Shown piece by piece: positions 5,392 through 12,191 of a stretch of DNA of 64,000 nucleotides (position 1 is the first letter of the stretch; every line of letters starts with the position of its first letter). The notes under the pieces were generated by a model. It saw only the letters and a program-made list of their open reading frames with translations, did not search any database and was not told where the DNA came from. Location of the stretch: assembly GCF_003544875.1 (NCBI RefSeq), contig NZ_CP032094.1, forward strand, positions 930,001-994,000, written 5' to 3'. This DNA comes from Vibrio alfacsensis (GTDB lineage: Bacteria > Pseudomonadota > Gammaproteobacteria > Enterobacterales > Vibrionaceae). The position numbers and the translations under genes were made by a program.

Positions 5392-5423
5392 ATGCCGCCT
5401 TATTTTTTAAGGCGGCATTTTTA
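5392..5423. terminator. Intrinsic terminator after acyl-CoA ligase
   Basis: An 11-bp stem (ATGCCGCCTTA with its complement TAAGGCGGCAT) is followed by TTTTT on the plus strand and preceded by A-rich sequence. It may serve both convergent genes. Confidence 0.85.
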
Positions 5424-5433
5424 AATAGCATCC

Positions 5434-5895
5434 CTACAACTCTTTTAGCTCTTGCACTTCTGATGCCGTGAAATTGGTTTTAAAGGTGAATGCGTAAGGT
5501 GTGTCACCATGTTGCTTCAAGTGACTAAGGCGCGCTAAGGCTTCTTTCGATGTAGGAATATGATCATCTTCAATCCACCAAAGCACGTAAGTATCTTCAG
5601 CAAGGCGATGGAACCACTCGCCTTTTCTTCGCATAAAGTCGCGATGATGAGTTCGAAACATAAAGTTTTTCAGTGAATCAACTGACTCCCACACCGACAT
5701 ATTAACGATCATGTTTGGGTCATCGAACAACTGAATACTGGTTGCATCGCCCGATTCATCCTGTAACCGCCAGATAAAGCCATCACTGTTCTCTGCAATG
5801 CCATTAACAAGGTCAAGATTATCAACAAACTCTTTAATTTCTGGTGCATCTAAGGGGTATTTTGCAAGGGCGATATTTAACTGCGCCAGCTTCAT
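5434..5895 (-). CDS. DUF3291 domain protein
   Basis: A 153-residue cytoplasmic protein with the DUF3291 signature: MKLAQLNIALAKYPLDAPEI at the N-terminus, GFIWRLQDESGDAT, then MSVWESVDSLKNF and a central HHRDFMRRKGEWF and VLWWIEDDHIPT. The fold is a ferredoxin-like dimeric alpha/beta barrel, as in antibiotic-biosynthesis monooxygenases. No catalytic role is established. An upstream extension to 5931 exists, but the ATG at 5895 matches the family start and has GGATGG placed before it. It converges with the acyl-CoA ligase and shares its terminator region. Confidence 0.82.
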   Translation of the reverse strand: MKLAQLNIALAKYPLDAPEIKEFVDNLDLVNGIAENSDGFIWRLQDESGDATSIQLFDDPNMIVNMSVWESVDSLKNFMFRTHHRDFMRRKGEWFHRLAEDTYVLWWIEDDHIPTSKEALARLSHLKQHGDTPYAFTFKTNFTASEVQELKEL

Positions 5896-6044
5896 TCTAT
5901 GCCATCCTTGGTTTGTGAATGTAAAAACCAACTATAGCAAACGTTTGAGCTTCTAGCAGCACCATATAATTTACTTATCGTGAAGATTAAATATGCAACG
6001 CAAAAAGGCATTCTACTTCATGGTCGATTTAAGAACGAATGATA

Positions 6045-6068
6045 TACTGTTTGCGTCTAAAAACAGTA
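6045..6068. promoter_or_regulatory. Inverted repeat upstream of TonB receptor operon
   Basis: TACTGT and ACAGTA are separated by 12 bases, about 60 bp before the receptor start. The arms resemble a LexA box but the spacing is 4 bases too wide. It could be an operator for an unknown repressor. Confidence 0.35.
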
Positions 6069-6129
6069 CATTCGCAAATAACCTAGAAAGTTTTGGCATG
6101 GTATACCTGTGAGTGGTGAGAATTAATAC

Positions 6130-8277
6130 ATGCGTTTACCCTTTTCTGCTGTCATTGCGCCAACCTTATTGGTCGCTCCTTTTACTAATGCCGAATCGAG
6201 CCTTAATTCGTTGCTCGAAATGTCACTCGTGTCTTTGACTGACACTAAAGTAATATCGGCAACCCGCACCGCTCAAAGCCTTGCTGACACTGCTGCGGCC
6301 GTTTATGTCATTACAGCGAAAGAAATCAATCGTTCTGGTGCTCGCTCAGTCGCTGATGCATTAGCACTGGCACCAGGTTTACACGTGGCCAAGTATTCTA
6401 ACTACGATTGGGGGGTAACCGCCCGTGGTCAAAACCAAGCATTAAACAATACTCTAATGGTTATGGTAGACGGTCGCAGTGTGTTCAATCCTATGTTTTC
6501 CGGTGTCGACTGGGACCTTATTCCCGTTAGTATGGATAACATTGAACAGATAGAAGTTGTACTCGGCCCTGTTGGCACGATTTGGGGCGGCAATGCGGTC
6601 AATGGTGTTATAAATATTATTACTTTTGAAGCAGAGAACGCACCCAATGGAAAGGTCGCTATCAATGAGGGCAACTATCACTACTCTGAGTACAAACTCC
6701 ACGATTCTACAGCGGTAGGTGACTATGGCTATCTAAGTGGCTACTTTGAGTTTGTCGATCACATGCCGTGGACCAGCACAGAAGATAGAGTGCAACCCGT
6801 TCAAGATTACAATGTTTACACTGAGCGTTTTGGGGCTCGATTTGATTACCAAAAGTTTGCTCATACATTAAGTATTCAAGCTGGTGGTATTCGCTCTAGA
6901 GAAGATTACCAGTGGCTAAAATACAATCCTCACTTTCTCTTTCCGGGTCAGCCAGATACCGAGATGTATGATACCGAAATGACGATGCAAGAGTATTTCT
7001 CGGGGCTGCAACACATTTATGATAAAGAAAACGGCGACAGCTGGGATAACAAACTCTGGTTAACGTATAGCTCAAATGACGGAACCGATCGTGATGCTAA
7101 ATTCTGGCGCTTAGACCTAGATTCTCATTACACGATGAATGATTTATGGGGAACACAACTCAGTATCGGTGGCAATGCGCGGATAATTAAGGAAAAACTT
7201 GGTACCTATAGTATTGCTGAGCGCTATTCAATGCCTTATGTCAGAGTGACCGATGAGGCAAGTTTCCTTAATCAAAGTTATGGTATTTACGCCAACTGGA
7301 ATATTGACATTTCTAACGATACCAAACTCACGCTTGGTAATCGCTGGCAATACAACAATTTGACTCACGGAATTGAGCCACAGCCTCAGGTGCGTGTGAG
7401 CCATGAACTGTCGAATAACCAACGCTTATGGGCTGGTTGGGGCCGCGCCGTAGTTACTCCATCTAGGTTAGAGCAAGAGACTACATTCCAAGAAAATTAC
7501 TATGTTGAATCAGGTGCATTTGACGATGCTGGTAATCAATATGACTATATTGCGAGCTACCTATACAGAGGGAATGAAAACCTCAATATAGAAACGGTTG
7601 AAACCTATGAATTAGGCTACCGTGTTTGGGATGATAATACGATGCAACTTAGTCTAAGTGGCTACTATAGTGTGCATGACAATATCCGCGCAGCAAAAAA
7701 TGTGAGTGCCCAAGGCTGGATTATTACCGGTAACTCATCTCCTGGAACCGTTGGTACTTACATCGAGCAATACATCTCGGAGTACATTGATCCACTTTGG
7801 TCAGAAACAATGGGAGGAGAAGTCGCATTAAAATGGCAACCTTTAGACCAATTACAGTTGAATGCGAATTACAGCTACAAACGTATCGTTGGTCATTGCG
7901 AAGGCGCAATTTGCAGCTCGAACAACGCGGTTAAGCGTCAACTTGAAAATCAGCCAAATCATTTTGTAAACGCACAAGTAATGTGGGACATCACGCCACA
8001 ATGGTGGGTTAGTAGTACCATGCACTATGTCTCGGAGTCGACACTTCACGAAGATTTCCTTGATGACCCAAGCTATATTTGGCCAAAAGTATTGAGCTTT
8101 GATGCGTCGCTGAGCTGGCAATTCGCTAAGTATGCACCTCGAATTACCGCATCAGCAGAAAACTTGGGCGCAGACCAATCAAAAGAATACCCAGATAACC
8201 TAAGACCATATAATAATGGTACGCAATATTGGTTGAGCGTAGAGTGGAATTACGCCTCGGTTAATTGGTCGGAGTAA
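6130..8277 (+). CDS. TonB-dependent outer-membrane receptor
   Basis: A 715-residue protein with a signal peptide (MRLPFSAVIAPTLLVAPFTNA), a plug domain at about 50-165 (VISATRTAQSLADTAAAVYV, then LMVMVDGRSVFNP and VVLGPVGTIWGGNAVNGVIN) and a long beta-barrel ending in an aromatic-rich strand (NGTQYWLSVEWNY). It should take up or sense an iron complex, cobamide or other large ligand with TonB energy; the ligand cannot be told. It is the first gene of a tight operon with a YfiR-like protein (2-bp gap) and a diguanylate cyclase (4-bp overlap). That arrangement suggests the receptor feeds a c-di-GMP signal. Length is normal for the family. Confidence 0.9.
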   Translation: MRLPFSAVIAPTLLVAPFTNAESSLNSLLEMSLVSLTDTKVISATRTAQSLADTAAAVYVITAKEINRSGARSVADALALAPGLHVAKYSNYDWGVTARGQNQALNNTLMVMVDGRSVFNPMFSGVDWDLIPVSMDNIEQIEVVLGPVGTIWGGNAVNGVINIITFEAENAPNGKVAINEGNYHYSEYKLHDSTAVGDYGYLSGYFEFVDHMPWTSTEDRVQPVQDYNVYTERFGARFDYQKFAHTLSIQAGGIRSREDYQWLKYNPHFLFPGQPDTEMYDTEMTMQEYFSGLQHIYDKENGDSWDNKLWLTYSSNDGTDRDAKFWRLDLDSHYTMNDLWGTQLSIGGNARIIKEKLGTYSIAERYSMPYVRVTDEASFLNQSYGIYANWNIDISNDTKLTLGNRWQYNNLTHGIEPQPQVRVSHELSNNQRLWAGWGRAVVTPSRLEQETTFQENYYVESGAFDDAGNQYDYIASYLYRGNENLNIETVETYELGYRVWDDNTMQLSLSGYYSVHDNIRAAKNVSAQGWIITGNSSPGTVGTYIEQYISEYIDPLWSETMGGEVALKWQPLDQLQLNANYSYKRIVGHCEGAICSSNNAVKRQLENQPNHFVNAQVMWDITPQWWVSSTMHYVSESTLHEDFLDDPSYIWPKVLSFDASLSWQFAKYAPRITASAENLGADQSKEYPDNLRPYNNGTQYWLSVEWNYASVNWSE

Positions 8278-8279
8278 TA

Positions 8280-8819
8280 ATGATAAGCCGCAGTCAATTT
8301 TATTTATTCTCGGTAAAATGGGGAGCGATGATATGCCTTTGTTTATACACATCGCTTGCTATCGCCAAAGTTGATGATGTTGACCTTAAAGCGGTTTACC
8401 TGTTCCGCTTCGCGCTATTAGCCGACTGGCAGAAAACGTCCGTTCATGCAGAACATCTGGAGTACTGTGTACTTGAAGCTGGCAAAGTCAGCGCAAGGTT
8501 GAAAAATGTCGTTGAGCTGAAACCTGACATCGCACATTTTTATAATTTGAGTGAAGAACAAAACCCCAATGTCTGCCATATACTGTATGTGGAGGACCAT
8601 AATGAATCAAAAATATCTTTGCTAAAAACACAATTTCCTCACGCATTATTGGTAGGGAATGGGAAAGCCTTTATCGACAAAGGTGGCATGATTGCATTCA
8701 TCAAAGTACGCAATCGAATTCGACCTCTGATTTCACGTAAGCATGTTAAGCAAACACAAGTGCAATTACGATCTCAACTGCTCGAAGTGTCAGAGCTTGT
8801 GAAAGAGGATGAGAGATGA
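8280..8819 (+). CDS. YfiR-like periplasmic regulator (DUF4154)
   Basis: A 179-residue exported protein. After an N-terminal hydrophobic signal (LFSVKWGAMICLCLYTSLAIA) it shows the YfiR/DUF4154 pattern: VDLKAVYLFRFALLADWQ, LEYCVLEAG, NVCHILYVEDHN, HALLVGNGKAFIDKGGMIAF and KVRNRIRPLIS. In Pseudomonas YfiR sits in the periplasm and restrains the diguanylate cyclase YfiN. By position this protein should do the same for the cyclase that overlaps it by 4 bp. The ATG at 8280 follows the receptor stop by 2 bp and uses the GGAG at 8271-8274, so it is preferred to the upstream TTG at 8265. Two cysteines could form a disulfide. Confidence 0.85.
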   Translation: MISRSQFYLFSVKWGAMICLCLYTSLAIAKVDDVDLKAVYLFRFALLADWQKTSVHAEHLEYCVLEAGKVSARLKNVVELKPDIAHFYNLSEEQNPNVCHILYVEDHNESKISLLKTQFPHALLVGNGKAFIDKGGMIAFIKVRNRIRPLISRKHVKQTQVQLRSQLLEVSELVKEDER

Positions 8820-10726
8820 TTTTCAAACGATTTGCTCACCTTCCTTTACGTTACAAAATGATATTGCCGACTTGGCTTATGGTCATGATGATCGTCGGCC
8901 TTATTGGTGCACCTGCAATCCACTTTGTAATCCAATCCCAAAGAGAAGCTCAAGACGAAAGAATCTCAATTCTTTCACAAGGCGTTGCCACAACATTACA
9001 AGCCGCGTTGATGTTCGACGATCCGATCACTGCAAAAGAACAGTTAATCAACCTTACCTTTGATCCGGACATTATTGCCGCAAAAGTCGTCAATTTTCAC
9101 GGAGAAAGTATCGCCCATATTCATCAACTTCCGACTCACTGCCAATGGGTAAATGAGACAGTAGATTGTGATGGTGTGCGCTACCACACTAAAATTGCCG
9201 AAATTTTCTCTACTGGTGACCTCCTGGGCCAACTCGTCCTTTGGGAATCTCAAGAAAACCTTTATAAAAAAGAGCAACAATTGTTGCTTTCACTCGCCGC
9301 ACTAACGTTTGTTATTTCACTATTGTCATGGTTTTTTGCCCGCCACCTACACAGTGTCATCGTTAAGCCCCTATCGGCCTTACATTTCTCAATGGAACAA
9401 ATGAGTATGGAGGGCATTACTAAACGATCAATTCCAATCACACACGATGATGAAATCGGAAAACTGACCGCTTGCTTCAATGAAATGATTGAAAATCTCG
9501 TCGTTCGAGAACATCAATTGCAAAGTGCACTGCTACAAGTAGAACAGAAAAACCGATACATTCATGGCGCATTGGATGTTATGACGCGTGGTGTTGTAGT
9601 AGCCTCGCCAGACGGTAAGGTAAACTATTGCAACCCTGTCGCTACAAATGAAATTTTTAGTGTAAATAACGCCCCGTTACTTGATATACGCTGCGTTATG
9701 GAGAGCCTTTTTGAATCGAAGTCTGCGATAGAAACAGTACTGTGCGCCATTGAACAACACCAACGATTAGATTCTATTGAGGTCAAAACACGCCTAGACG
9801 GTAAACGATACAGCATCAGTTGTCATCCAATGGAAGAAGAAAACCAGTCCCTACTTCAATTCCACAATGTCACCGCTCAATTGATCGCTGAGCAGCGCCG
9901 AAAATTGCTAGAGTTAATGTTCGACCAAAATCAAGACGGTATTCTCGTACTGGATAGACGTTTAAATGTTACGACACAAAATGCCGCGGCTATGAATTGG
10001 TTCGGTGAATTACACCATATTACAGACTTGTCTTTAAAGAACCCTCTCCTCTTCTCCAAGAAAGAAACAAGAGATCTCATCAAGAATGGTTTTATTGTTT
10101 ACAAGGTGCAAATTGAACACCGAACGCAATGTTGGCGCGCTTATGAGATGAAAGCAAGTGTGCTTAAAGGGTTAGATGGTTACGTTGAAGCGTTTGTCAT
10201 CAGCTTAACCGATTTGTCATTAGGTATGGAGCTCAAACGGTTAAATTTTGAAGCAAACCACGACCCTCTGACTGGGTTAGCTAATCGTTCTAAAGCGATG
10301 CGTATTTTACAAAACTGGCATGAACAAGCTCATTCGCTATTCATCTTCTTCATCGACTTAGACGGTTTTAAGGCGGTAAATGACCAATTTGGCCACGCTA
10401 TAGGTGATGAACTTCTCCGCATCGTCGCGAAGCGCCTCAAATTGTGCACTTCATCACAAGATTTGGTATCGCGCATATCCGGCGATGAATTTGTTGTCGG
10501 AATCCGAAGCACTAGCCACTGTAAGCCGATCGCCCAAAGAATCATTGATACGTTAGCCAAACCAATGGTCATTAATGGTCACGAATGCCATGTCACCGCA
10601 AGCATTGGGATCAGTAAGTGGTCAGCGGGTAGCAGCAAGACTCTCGATGAAAGCATTGCGATTTCCGATAGTCATATGTACATCGCTAAGCGCCAAGGCA
10701 AAAATGGTTACTATTACGTAGCATAA
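8816..10726 (+). CDS. Membrane diguanylate cyclase with CHASE8-like, HAMP, PAS and GGDEF domains
   Basis: A 636-residue inner-membrane protein. There is a transmembrane helix near 15-38 and a periplasmic sensor at about 40-150 that resembles CHASE8. A second helix lies near 158-176, followed by HAMP (about 178-235), two PAS-like segments (about 245-345 and 365-465) and a C-terminal GGDEF domain. The active-site loop reads SGDEF, a variant still compatible with activity. The inhibitory RxxD site is SSQD here, so product inhibition is probably lost. The gene starts inside the YfiR-like gene (ATGA overlap). Model, by analogy with YfiBNR: outer-membrane receptor to YfiR-like protein to cyclase, raising c-di-GMP. 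Confidence 0.9.
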   Translation: MIFKRFAHLPLRYKMILPTWLMVMMIVGLIGAPAIHFVIQSQREAQDERISILSQGVATTLQAALMFDDPITAKEQLINLTFDPDIIAAKVVNFHGESIAHIHQLPTHCQWVNETVDCDGVRYHTKIAEIFSTGDLLGQLVLWESQENLYKKEQQLLLSLAALTFVISLLSWFFARHLHSVIVKPLSALHFSMEQMSMEGITKRSIPITHDDEIGKLTACFNEMIENLVVREHQLQSALLQVEQKNRYIHGALDVMTRGVVVASPDGKVNYCNPVATNEIFSVNNAPLLDIRCVMESLFESKSAIETVLCAIEQHQRLDSIEVKTRLDGKRYSISCHPMEEENQSLLQFHNVTAQLIAEQRRKLLELMFDQNQDGILVLDRRLNVTTQNAAAMNWFGELHHITDLSLKNPLLFSKKETRDLIKNGFIVYKVQIEHRTQCWRAYEMKASVLKGLDGYVEAFVISLTDLSLGMELKRLNFEANHDPLTGLANRSKAMRILQNWHEQAHSLFIFFIDLDGFKAVNDQFGHAIGDELLRIVAKRLKLCTSSQDLVSRISGDEFVVGIRSTSHCKPIAQRIIDTLAKPMVINGHECHVTASIGISKWSAGSSKTLDESIAISDSHMYIAKRQGKNGYYYVA

Positions 10727-10779
10727 ACTTAGAACGCTATCACAGAGGCCTATGTGCAGACAGGTTGTACTTCTTCATT

Positions 10780-11163
10780 CTAAACTTTTTGTCTAAAACT
10801 CAATAGGGCTCGAAAATGATTTCGGGCTCTTACTACATTTTGAACCTCACTGATATTGATACTATCAACTTCAGAACTAACCTCTACATCATCTAACCAA
10901 AATACGTCAAACAACAGACGTAAGTCTTCCATCAGCATCTTTTCAATCGTCAGTATCTCTAACGACTCATTATTCAGCAACTTAGACACCTCAACGATGA
11001 TCGTTCTTTGATTAAAATGTTTGCCTCCATTATTTAGAACGTATTCCTGTATATCTGTGACAATCACGATCGAGCACTTACCCTCTCCAATATCGAACAC
11101 ATCGTACGGCCTATCATTAAGGTAAATGGTTCTTTGATACCTTTCTTCGGCGTTGTTGCTCAA
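10780..11163 (-). CDS. Hypothetical protein, 5' end probably removed by IS5-family element
   Basis: A 127-codon frame whose only start is a TTG inside the left end of the insertion sequence. The first native residues (EERYQRTIYLNDRPYDVFDI) appear right at the element border, so the original start was probably cut off. The text YDVFDIGEGKCSIVIV faintly recalls the opening of an alpha/beta hydrolase, but no catalytic motif follows and the rest is acidic and unrecognised. It converges with the diguanylate cyclase. It could be a chance-truncated gene or a short protein now expressed from the element. Confidence 0.4.
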   Translation of the reverse strand: MSNNAEERYQRTIYLNDRPYDVFDIGEGKCSIVIVTDIQEYVLNNGGKHFNQRTIIVEVSKLLNNESLEILTIEKMLMEDLRLLFDVFWLDDVEVSSEVDSINISEVQNVVRARNHFRALLSFRQKV

Positions 11164-12191
11164 ATCGAATTGAACCTTTTTAGATAGTTGCGATCTGATC
11201 TCATATCAATGATTGAACGAGCAAAAAAATGGGCAAATCGAAAGCTAAAATCACAAACTGGAGCAAGTACAACCGCGCACTATGTCAGCGTGGCAACGTG
11301 ACTTTTTGGATTGACGACTCAGCCGTTAAAGCGTGGAAATGCACGACGCATCACGGGAAACGAGGCCGAGGTTTTCAATACTCCGTTACGGCTATCGAAA
11401 CTACCCTCATGATAAAAGGCATTTTCTCTCTTCCGCTTCGCGCTCTTCAAGGTTTCATCGATTCCATTTTTAAACTGATGGATGTTCCGCTGACTTCGCC
11501 TGATTACACATGCATCAGCAAACAATCAAAGACAGTACAGATCCAGTATCGCAACAAGTCTAGAGGTAGCATCCGTCATATTGCCATTGACTCTACAGGC
11601 CTTAAAGTCTTTGGAGAGGGAGAATGGAAAGTCAATAAGCACGGCAATGAAAAGCGTAGAACATGGCGCAAACTGCATCTTGCTGTCGATGTAGATACAC
11701 ATGAAGTCATCAGTGCCGAAGTAAGCTTGGTTAATGTCGGCGATAGTGAGGTACTCCCGACGCTGATCAATCCATTACAAAGGAAAATAATCTCAGTCTC
11801 TGGTGATGGTGCATACGATACGAAGGAATGCCACAAAGTGTTGCAACGAAAAGGCATTACTCCATTAATACCACCACGTAAAAATGCTGGCTTCTGGGAC
11901 GATGGACACCCAAGAAATGAAGCGGTAAAAGCCGTAAAAAGTGATACGTTGGCTCAATGGAAAATTAACTCTGGTTATCACGACCGTTCTTTATCTGAAA
12001 CAGCAATGTCTCGATACAAAGGGCTAACCAGTGGTCAATTAAGCTTAAGAAACTACAATGCTCAAGTCGGTGAAGCGTTGGCCAACGTCAAAGCCATGAA
12101 TAAGGTCATAGGACTAGGTATGCCTATTCGAAGCTAGTGGTAAAAGAGCGTAGGCAAGATCGGTTCTTCACTTGATTTGATCAACAACGCC
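11149..12191 (+). mobile_element. IS5-family (IS903-like) insertion sequence, 1043 bp
   Basis: Terminal inverted repeats begin GGCGTTGTTGCTCAAATC on the left and GGCGTTGTTGATCAAATC on the right (complement), and enclose one full-length transposase gene. The flanking 9 bases (11140-11148 and 12192-12200) do not match, so the expected target duplication is absent. That points to a later deletion or recombination at one border, in keeping with the truncated ORF on the left side. The element itself appears intact. Confidence 0.9.
11229..12137 (+). CDS. IS5-family transposase (IS903 group)
   Basis: A 302-residue DDE transposase, about the length of the IS903 enzyme. The catalytic residues are visible: Asp in HIAIDSTGLKVFG, Asp in SVSGDGAYDTKEC and the Y-R-E-K signature in YHDRSLSETAMSRYKGLTSG. 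The N-terminus (NWSKYNRALCQRGNVTFWID) is family-typical. No frameshift or early stop is seen, so this copy may still be active. It ends 54 bp before the right inverted repeat. Confidence 0.93.
   Translation: MGKSKAKITNWSKYNRALCQRGNVTFWIDDSAVKAWKCTTHHGKRGRGFQYSVTAIETTLMIKGIFSLPLRALQGFIDSIFKLMDVPLTSPDYTCISKQSKTVQIQYRNKSRGSIRHIAIDSTGLKVFGEGEWKVNKHGNEKRRTWRKLHLAVDVDTHEVISAEVSLVNVGDSEVLPTLINPLQRKIISVSGDGAYDTKECHKVLQRKGITPLIPPRKNAGFWDDGHPRNEAVKAVKSDTLAQWKINSGYHDRSLSETAMSRYKGLTSGQLSLRNYNAQVGEALANVKAMNKVIGLGMPIRS

Follow-up and report, generated by a model that had tools for sequence, protein, structure and literature searches.

How might an event at the outer membrane of Vibrio alfacsensis be passed to an enzyme of cyclic di-GMP (c-di-GMP) synthesis in the cytoplasm? 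The question is raised by three consecutive genes in a 64,000-nucleotide stretch of its genome (contig NZ_CP032094.1, positions 930,001 to 994,000 of the forward strand; hereafter the window), which encode a TonB-dependent receptor, a YfiR-like periplasmic protein and a predicted diguanylate cyclase. We propose, with a probability of roughly 0.57, that the operon constitutes an outer-membrane-to-cytoplasm relay of the Yfi type, in which the lipoprotein YfiB has given way to a TonB-dependent receptor and a receptor segment freed by ligand captures YfiR, so that the cyclase is released. The features on which this proposal is built are as follows.

6130..8277, + strand: TonB-dependent outer-membrane receptor, 715 residues (Pfam Plug and barrel; NCBIfam TOL_0244; AlphaFold2 model)
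6202..6237, + strand: N-terminal segment L25-L36 (LNSLLEMSLVSL), proposed YfiR docking tag (segment hidden Markov model (HMM), 23.5 bits)
6241..6267, + strand: TonB-box-like stretch DTKVISATR (D38-R46), read from the sequence
6280..6609, + strand: Plug domain, residues 51-160 (PF07715)
8280..8819, + strand: YfiR-like periplasmic protein, 179 residues (DUF4154 YfiR/HmsC-like, PF13689)
8816..10726, + strand: predicted diguanylate cyclase, CHASE8-HAMP-PAS-PAS-GGDEF, 636 residues (Pfam; HAMP below cut-off)
9002..9016, + strand: AALMF, corresponding to AAVVF, the YfiR-contact motif of YfiN (sequence; motif as described in the available text of PMC3375315)
10478..10492, + strand: SGDEF catalytic signature (sequence; c-di-GMP synthesis by SGDEF in MbaA as described in the available text of PMC8079147)

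The receptor, YfiR-like and cyclase genes

The first-pass annotation had read the three genes as one tight operon, and the open reading frame (ORF) coordinates and Pfam assignments agree with it: a gap of 2 bp separates the receptor gene from the YfiR-like gene, which in turn overlaps the CHASE8-HAMP-PAS-GGDEF gene by 4 bp. Because the source genome has, in 4.9 Mb, one YfiR-family gene and eight plug matches (one of them a 98-residue fragment), and because the trio recurs elsewhere, the arrangement goes beyond chance.

The first product is a TonB-dependent receptor by its matches to Plug (PF07715, 71.8 bits) and to the TonB_dep_Rec barrel (PF00593, 82.9 bits), both over cut-off, and the barrel strands are present in its AlphaFold2 model (mean predicted local distance difference test (pLDDT) score of 64). 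Among solved structures compared by sequence the closest is the colicin I receptor (E 4e-17, mainly through the plug), followed by the ferric enterobactin and vitamin B12 receptors. Between the end of the signal peptide (residue 21, by eye) and the start of the plug at residue 51 lie about 29 residues, and Pfam found no STN domain in the receptor at E <= 0.001. FecA and FpvA are TonB-dependent transducers that both bind and signal, using an N-terminal STN domain and an anti-sigma factor, and it is in this missing STN match that the window receptor differs from them.

The YfiR-like protein has 179 residues when read from its ATG (the longest frame starts with TTG at 8265). It belongs to the periplasmic YfiR family by its match to DUF4154 YfiR/HmsC-like (78.5 bits), and its predicted fold matches solved YfiR; in the VIA list of fold matches, the entries under YfiR and the substrate-binding ones are at the common background level. 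W50, C63 and C99 are invariant in 33 aligned YfiR, and the two cysteines probably correspond to the redox-responsive pair C71-C110 of Pseudomonas aeruginosa YfiR, a correspondence inferred from the motif since the alignment held no P. aeruginosa sequence.

The predicted cyclase matches CHASE8 (44.5 bits), GGDEF (130.8 bits), PAS_4 (26.3 bits) and PAS_8 (26.1 bits), with HAMP at 23.6 bits, 1.4 under the cut-off of 25. Its CHASE8 domain has AALMF at the position of AAVVF, the proposed YfiR contact of P. aeruginosa YfiN (available text of PMC3375315), and 78 of 95 CHASE8 proteins show the motif in a loose form; by these features it appears to be a cyclase of the CHASE8-HAMP-GGDEF kind known from YfiBNR. 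The catalytic domain has SGDEF as its signature, and SSQD stands where an RxxD I-site would be. For V. cholerae MbaA, an SGDEF domain is reported to be capable of c-di-GMP synthesis (PMC8079147, available text), and E. coli YfiN is stated, in the accessible part of PMC10127611, to be without RxxD as well. Among 96 CHASE8-GGDEF proteins, 49 read SGDEF, 29 GGDEF, 16 AGDEF and one GGEEF, with one giving no signature by pattern, and RxxD is present in 67 of the 95 scored. Cyclases of the window's own type (window, L066, L074 and 13 others) all lack it (16/16; 12 AGDEF, 4 SGDEF) and in this differ from most other scored CHASE8-GGDEF proteins.

The unit resembles YfiBNR of P. aeruginosa (where YfiN is also called TpbB) in its three-layer arrangement, in its YfiR fold and in a CHASE8-GGDEF protein with an AAVVF-like motif. 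It differs in having a TonB-dependent receptor instead of an OmpA/Pal-like lipoprotein, in the two PAS matches and SGDEF of its cyclase, in the order receptor-YfiR-cyclase, and in its YfiR, which is without the second cysteine pair, CxxGSxFC. The gene adjacent to YfiR in the window is not a YfiB, a statement confined to this locus as the rest of the genome was not searched for YfiB. CxxGSxFC is present in all eight YfiR with an OmpA-like gene nearby (8/8) and in two with neither partner; it is found in none of 118 YfiR with an adjacent receptor and in none of 23 that have a plug no more than 5 kb away. This split bears out the earlier suggestion that the receptor stands in the place of YfiB. 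NCBIfam holds separate models for the YfiB-linked and receptor-linked kinds (sequest_YfiR and TOL_0243). In P. aeruginosa YfiR, the residues around the second pair contact YfiB, according to the available text of PMC4655355.

The window trio matches all three members of an NCBIfam set (TOL_0244, TOL_0243 and HK_near_YfiR_like; NF053590-NF053592), the first two being the best NCBIfam matches of the receptor and of the YfiR-like protein, but all fall below the curated cut-offs (306 of 645, 68 of 125 and, for the cyclase N-terminus, 77.9 or rounded 78 of 194 bits), and where that set has a histidine kinase as output the window has a predicted cyclase. The receptor family, the YfiR-like family and the YfiR-associated histidine kinase are thus already known from NCBIfam; what is added here is the trio with a cyclase as output, the segment, the neighbours that have no plug and the division of YfiR by cysteine pair. 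HmsCDE of Yersinia pestis has an outer-membrane partner that is not a TonB receptor. It is likened to the window system by its tripartite control of c-di-GMP, as far as the available source describes it, and by the membership of the window YfiR in PF13689 (YfiR/HmsC-like). A literature search, with subscription journals mostly outside its coverage, showed, among the results listed, no publication on a TonB receptor paired with YfiR.

Within the genus, PF13689 occurs in 74 of 196 genomes, and 80 other loci together with the window give 81 YfiR genes, whose neighbours were classified by iterated HMMs built from the window proteins. A TonB-dependent receptor is adjacent, on the same strand, to 67 of them and a CHASE8 gene is adjacent to 79, in 75 cases with GGDEF. 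Beyond the genus, PF13689 was found in 39 of 274 genomes of a class sample and in 70 of 299 of a phylum sample (which includes some genus members). From about 160 loci, 80 regions (chosen, not random) and five further loci from a sequence scan supplied 88 YfiR; 51 have an adjacent receptor (46/83 from regions, 5/5 from the scan), 60 have a CHASE8 neighbour and eight have, by motif pattern, an OmpA-like (YfiB-like) gene less than 2.6 kb away. The usual order is receptor-YfiR-CHASE8, and other orders occur. The path from outer membrane through periplasm to c-di-GMP that had been read from the window therefore holds as a gene arrangement, being a recurring unit; that it reports ligand uptake is a suggestion from sequence. 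Mirror distances to YfiR (r of 0.924 for segment plus plug, 0.904 for the CHASE8 region, 0.904 for the barrel and 0.859 for the cytoplasmic part) had no genome background and are not used.

An N-terminal segment of YfiR-adjacent receptors

The best candidate for the link between the receptor and its messenger is the segment LNSLLEMSLVSL, which precedes DTKVISATR, a stretch that we take to resemble TonB boxes, and then the plug. Such a segment follows the signal peptide of YfiR-adjacent receptors, with a consensus near LxxLxxMSLEEL or, more loosely, Lxx(L/M)xx(M/L)(S/P)L(E)xL, and one of its leucines is kept in all 105 linked receptors. In the receptor model it forms short helices (residues 22-29 and 33-37) of low confidence (pLDDT of about 30), which would fit an exposed peptide and prove nothing.

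When the N-termini of 2601 ORFs were scored with the segment HMM, 131 plug proteins and four other ORFs exceeded 5 bits, the latter being L164 (9.4 bits), L171 (7.3 bits), a broken receptor (L107) and a chance match (L124). At least 5 bits were reached by 115 of 121 scoreable YfiR-adjacent receptors. As a control, 40 genus genomes without PF13689 were taken, 39 of which have receptor matches; the best match of 30 was examined, and none of these 30 receptors reached 5 bits (top score 3.3 bits).

All plug matches of five genomes (48 matches, representing 47 genes) were also compared, at a segment threshold of 10 bits. Fourteen receptors carry the segment, 13 of which sit in a YfiR cluster, including one that is the second of two tandem receptors and one that is divergent at 466 bp. 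None of the 33 receptors without the segment is directly adjacent to YfiR; four of these have no scoreable N-terminus (L204, L219, L220 and L250/L254), the last being convergent and 2.3 kb from the second YfiR of genome G038, beyond the cyclase. Fisher's test of segment against YfiR cluster gives 1e-10, 4e-10 without the four unscoreable genes and 1e-9 when L250/L254 is counted as near. Against these values it counts that linked receptors, among them those of the five genomes, had served to train the segment HMM, and that the five genomes were chosen for having YfiR.

The two plug-less ORFs L164 (4739-5875, 378 residues) and L171 (6480-7535, 351 residues) lie immediately upstream of YfiR, and a CHASE8-HAMP-GGDEF-EAL protein stands behind YfiR at each locus. 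Both are likely outer-membrane barrels; L171 matches PF13557 just under threshold (21.7 bits, cut-off 22) and L164 has no match in Pfam. Three homologues of L171 with 44-46% identity (L223-L225) all adjoin YfiR and CHASE8 and start, by eye, with the same kind of segment (e.g. MADLSLQELF), whilst six remote homologues (24-31%) have neither YfiR nor CHASE8 in their available flanks and no segment-like start by eye. The plug-less family of L164 has matches in two of three genomes of the same order, L164 included, the second match being in pieces. At two further loci, L052 (7884-10643) and L166 (3871-6591), a YfiR domain and a hybrid histidine kinase with no CHASE8 match form one fusion protein, and a nearby convergent receptor starts LLGMSLEEL or LAQLSFEEL.

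We tentatively extend the proposal, at rather less than even odds, to a portable YfiR docking tag, such that barrels with or without a plug would be inputs to interchangeable outputs (cyclase, cyclase-phosphodiesterase or histidine kinase), the plug would be dispensable for signalling, and many divergent YfiR-YfiN systems that have no YfiB would have in such barrels their missing outer-membrane partner.

One genome, G557 (loci L186-L190 and L205-L221), holds seven YfiR-family matches, one of them an 881-residue fusion, and eight segment-bearing receptors, some in tandem, and is a possible model for parallel channels.

A proposed relay and its alternatives

In the proposed relay, the YfiR-like protein would at rest bind the CHASE8 domain through its AALMF face and hold the cyclase off. 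On binding ligand, the receptor would free into the periplasm its segment LNSLLEMSLVSL, next to the TonB-box-like stretch; there the segment would capture YfiR, and with YfiR captured the cyclase would be released and c-di-GMP would rise. We infer each of these binding steps, the sign and the control by ligand; capture is proposed by analogy with P. aeruginosa, in which the extended N-terminal loop of YfiB binds YfiR via F48, W55 and F57 (available text of PMC4887326), and the segment may act as this loop does.

According to the accessible text of Malone et al. 2012 (PMC3375315), Yfi is modular, and divergent operons are almost all without YfiB and have swapped outputs; the words TonB and Vibrio are absent from its main text. 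These YfiB-less operons leave the input from outside open, and within the genus a receptor fills the place at 67 of 81 YfiR, among the relatives sampled beyond it at 51 of 88. A connector of about 12 residues is offered here, which makes the question of receptor input directly testable. If the relay is real, some ligand-orphan receptors might be sensors of behaviour and not uptake proteins, and the segment would be a signature for finding them.

Several further observations weigh against this reading. The window YfiR has only 12-14% identity to solved YfiR, and phmmer finds no solved YfiR, giving a single chance match (E 0.94). Six of the 121 adjacent receptors fall under 5 bits, although one of them, L114, starts MSLMDL by eye, and in the five-genome comparison L207 carries the segment without a YfiR nearby. 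In the fetched regions, 16 of 41 non-adjacent plug proteins pass 5 bits (five fragments or split receptors, two tandem receptors, three less than 4 kb from YfiR and six marginal at 5.1-5.9 bits), and outside the genus 6/6 do so. The segment HMM gives L223-L225 only 1.3-4.8 bits, and the unlinked L227 reaches 3.3 bits, within its signal peptide, and so does no worse than they do, which is why their segments were judged by eye. No plug lies within 5 kb of 28 of the 88 YfiR outside the genus, at some of which the contig ends.

Receptor loss also belongs here. All three genes are intact by length at 63 of the 81 genus loci (a shortened receptor, L043, counted as intact), and at 12 the receptor is lost or broken with the YfiR and cyclase frames kept (L089, L090, L091, L111, L041, L065, L070, L077; L040, L068, L069, L076), L111 having a stop inside its YfiR match. 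Five of the lost receptors can still be traced, as about 70-100 matched residues or as frames. The others comprise two with a histidine-kinase partner, one with a broken cyclase and an intact receptor, one with both broken and two with no CHASE8. The receptor is therefore the part most often lost, so the YfiR-cyclase pair may act without it.

Of the alternatives, the one that survives best, unlikely as it is, has the receptor import a small ligand that YfiR, in fold one lobe of a substrate-binding protein, binds and in response alters its hold on the cyclase, so that the receptor and YfiR need not touch. This account leaves unexplained why a segment is common to YfiR-adjacent receptors and plug-less proteins and absent from most other receptors examined.

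Less probable again is a relay of opposite sign, in which the free receptor keeps YfiR off the cyclase and ligand sets YfiR free and so lowers c-di-GMP, or in which the receptor type of YfiR activates its partner. The kinase fusions L052 and L166, with no CHASE8, suggest that YfiR has targets beyond this domain, and the cysteine pair that in P. aeruginosa lies next to the YfiB-binding residues (PMC4655355, available text) is absent from the window YfiR, but the AAVVF-like CHASE8 motif proposed for repression by YfiR is kept. Mere co-transcription, in which YfiR and the cyclase would respond to redox or to the state of the envelope and the receptor would serve uptake under the same promoter, would suit the 12 loci where the pair outlives its receptor and the invariant W50, C63 and C99, of which the cysteines are probably the redox-responsive pair, yet is improbable given the shared segment and a trio that is met again, in other gene orders, across many genera.

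Upstream region, ligand and genomic setting

One further feature lies upstream of the operon.

5975..5991, + strand: box TTATCGTGAAGATTAAA, 68 bp before a TATACT -10-like hexamer (6043-6048)

A similar box (TTATCGTnnCGATAAAA-like), 68-70 bp before a TATAAT-like hexamer, is found upstream of the receptor genes at 9 of the 16 own-type loci, its consensus having been read by eye from these same loci. The source genome has one exact and eight one-mismatch sites against six control sites, and a regulon is not claimed; a sigma-70 scan gave five sites against 11.2 expected.

Three routes to the ligand were followed. For a riboswitch, positions 5400-11300 gave no Rfam match at E <= 1. For iron control by Fur, the best match in the window is 10/19 (shuffle mean 11.4), and the best at the 15 other own-type loci, 14/19 at L074, equals its shuffle maximum. 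Ten genes scanned on the flanks of seven genus loci fall into unrelated families, with no constant neighbour among them. With no Rfam match, no Fur box above shuffles and no constant neighbour, no ligand can be named.

A search of plasmids gave no match in 72,556 records. The neighbours of the operon in the window are a DUF3291 protein, an acyl-CoA ligase and an IS5-family transposase (Pfam/NCBIfam), the last at 11229-12137, just 3' of the operon, and transposase and integrase-core ORFs lie at 501-1695.

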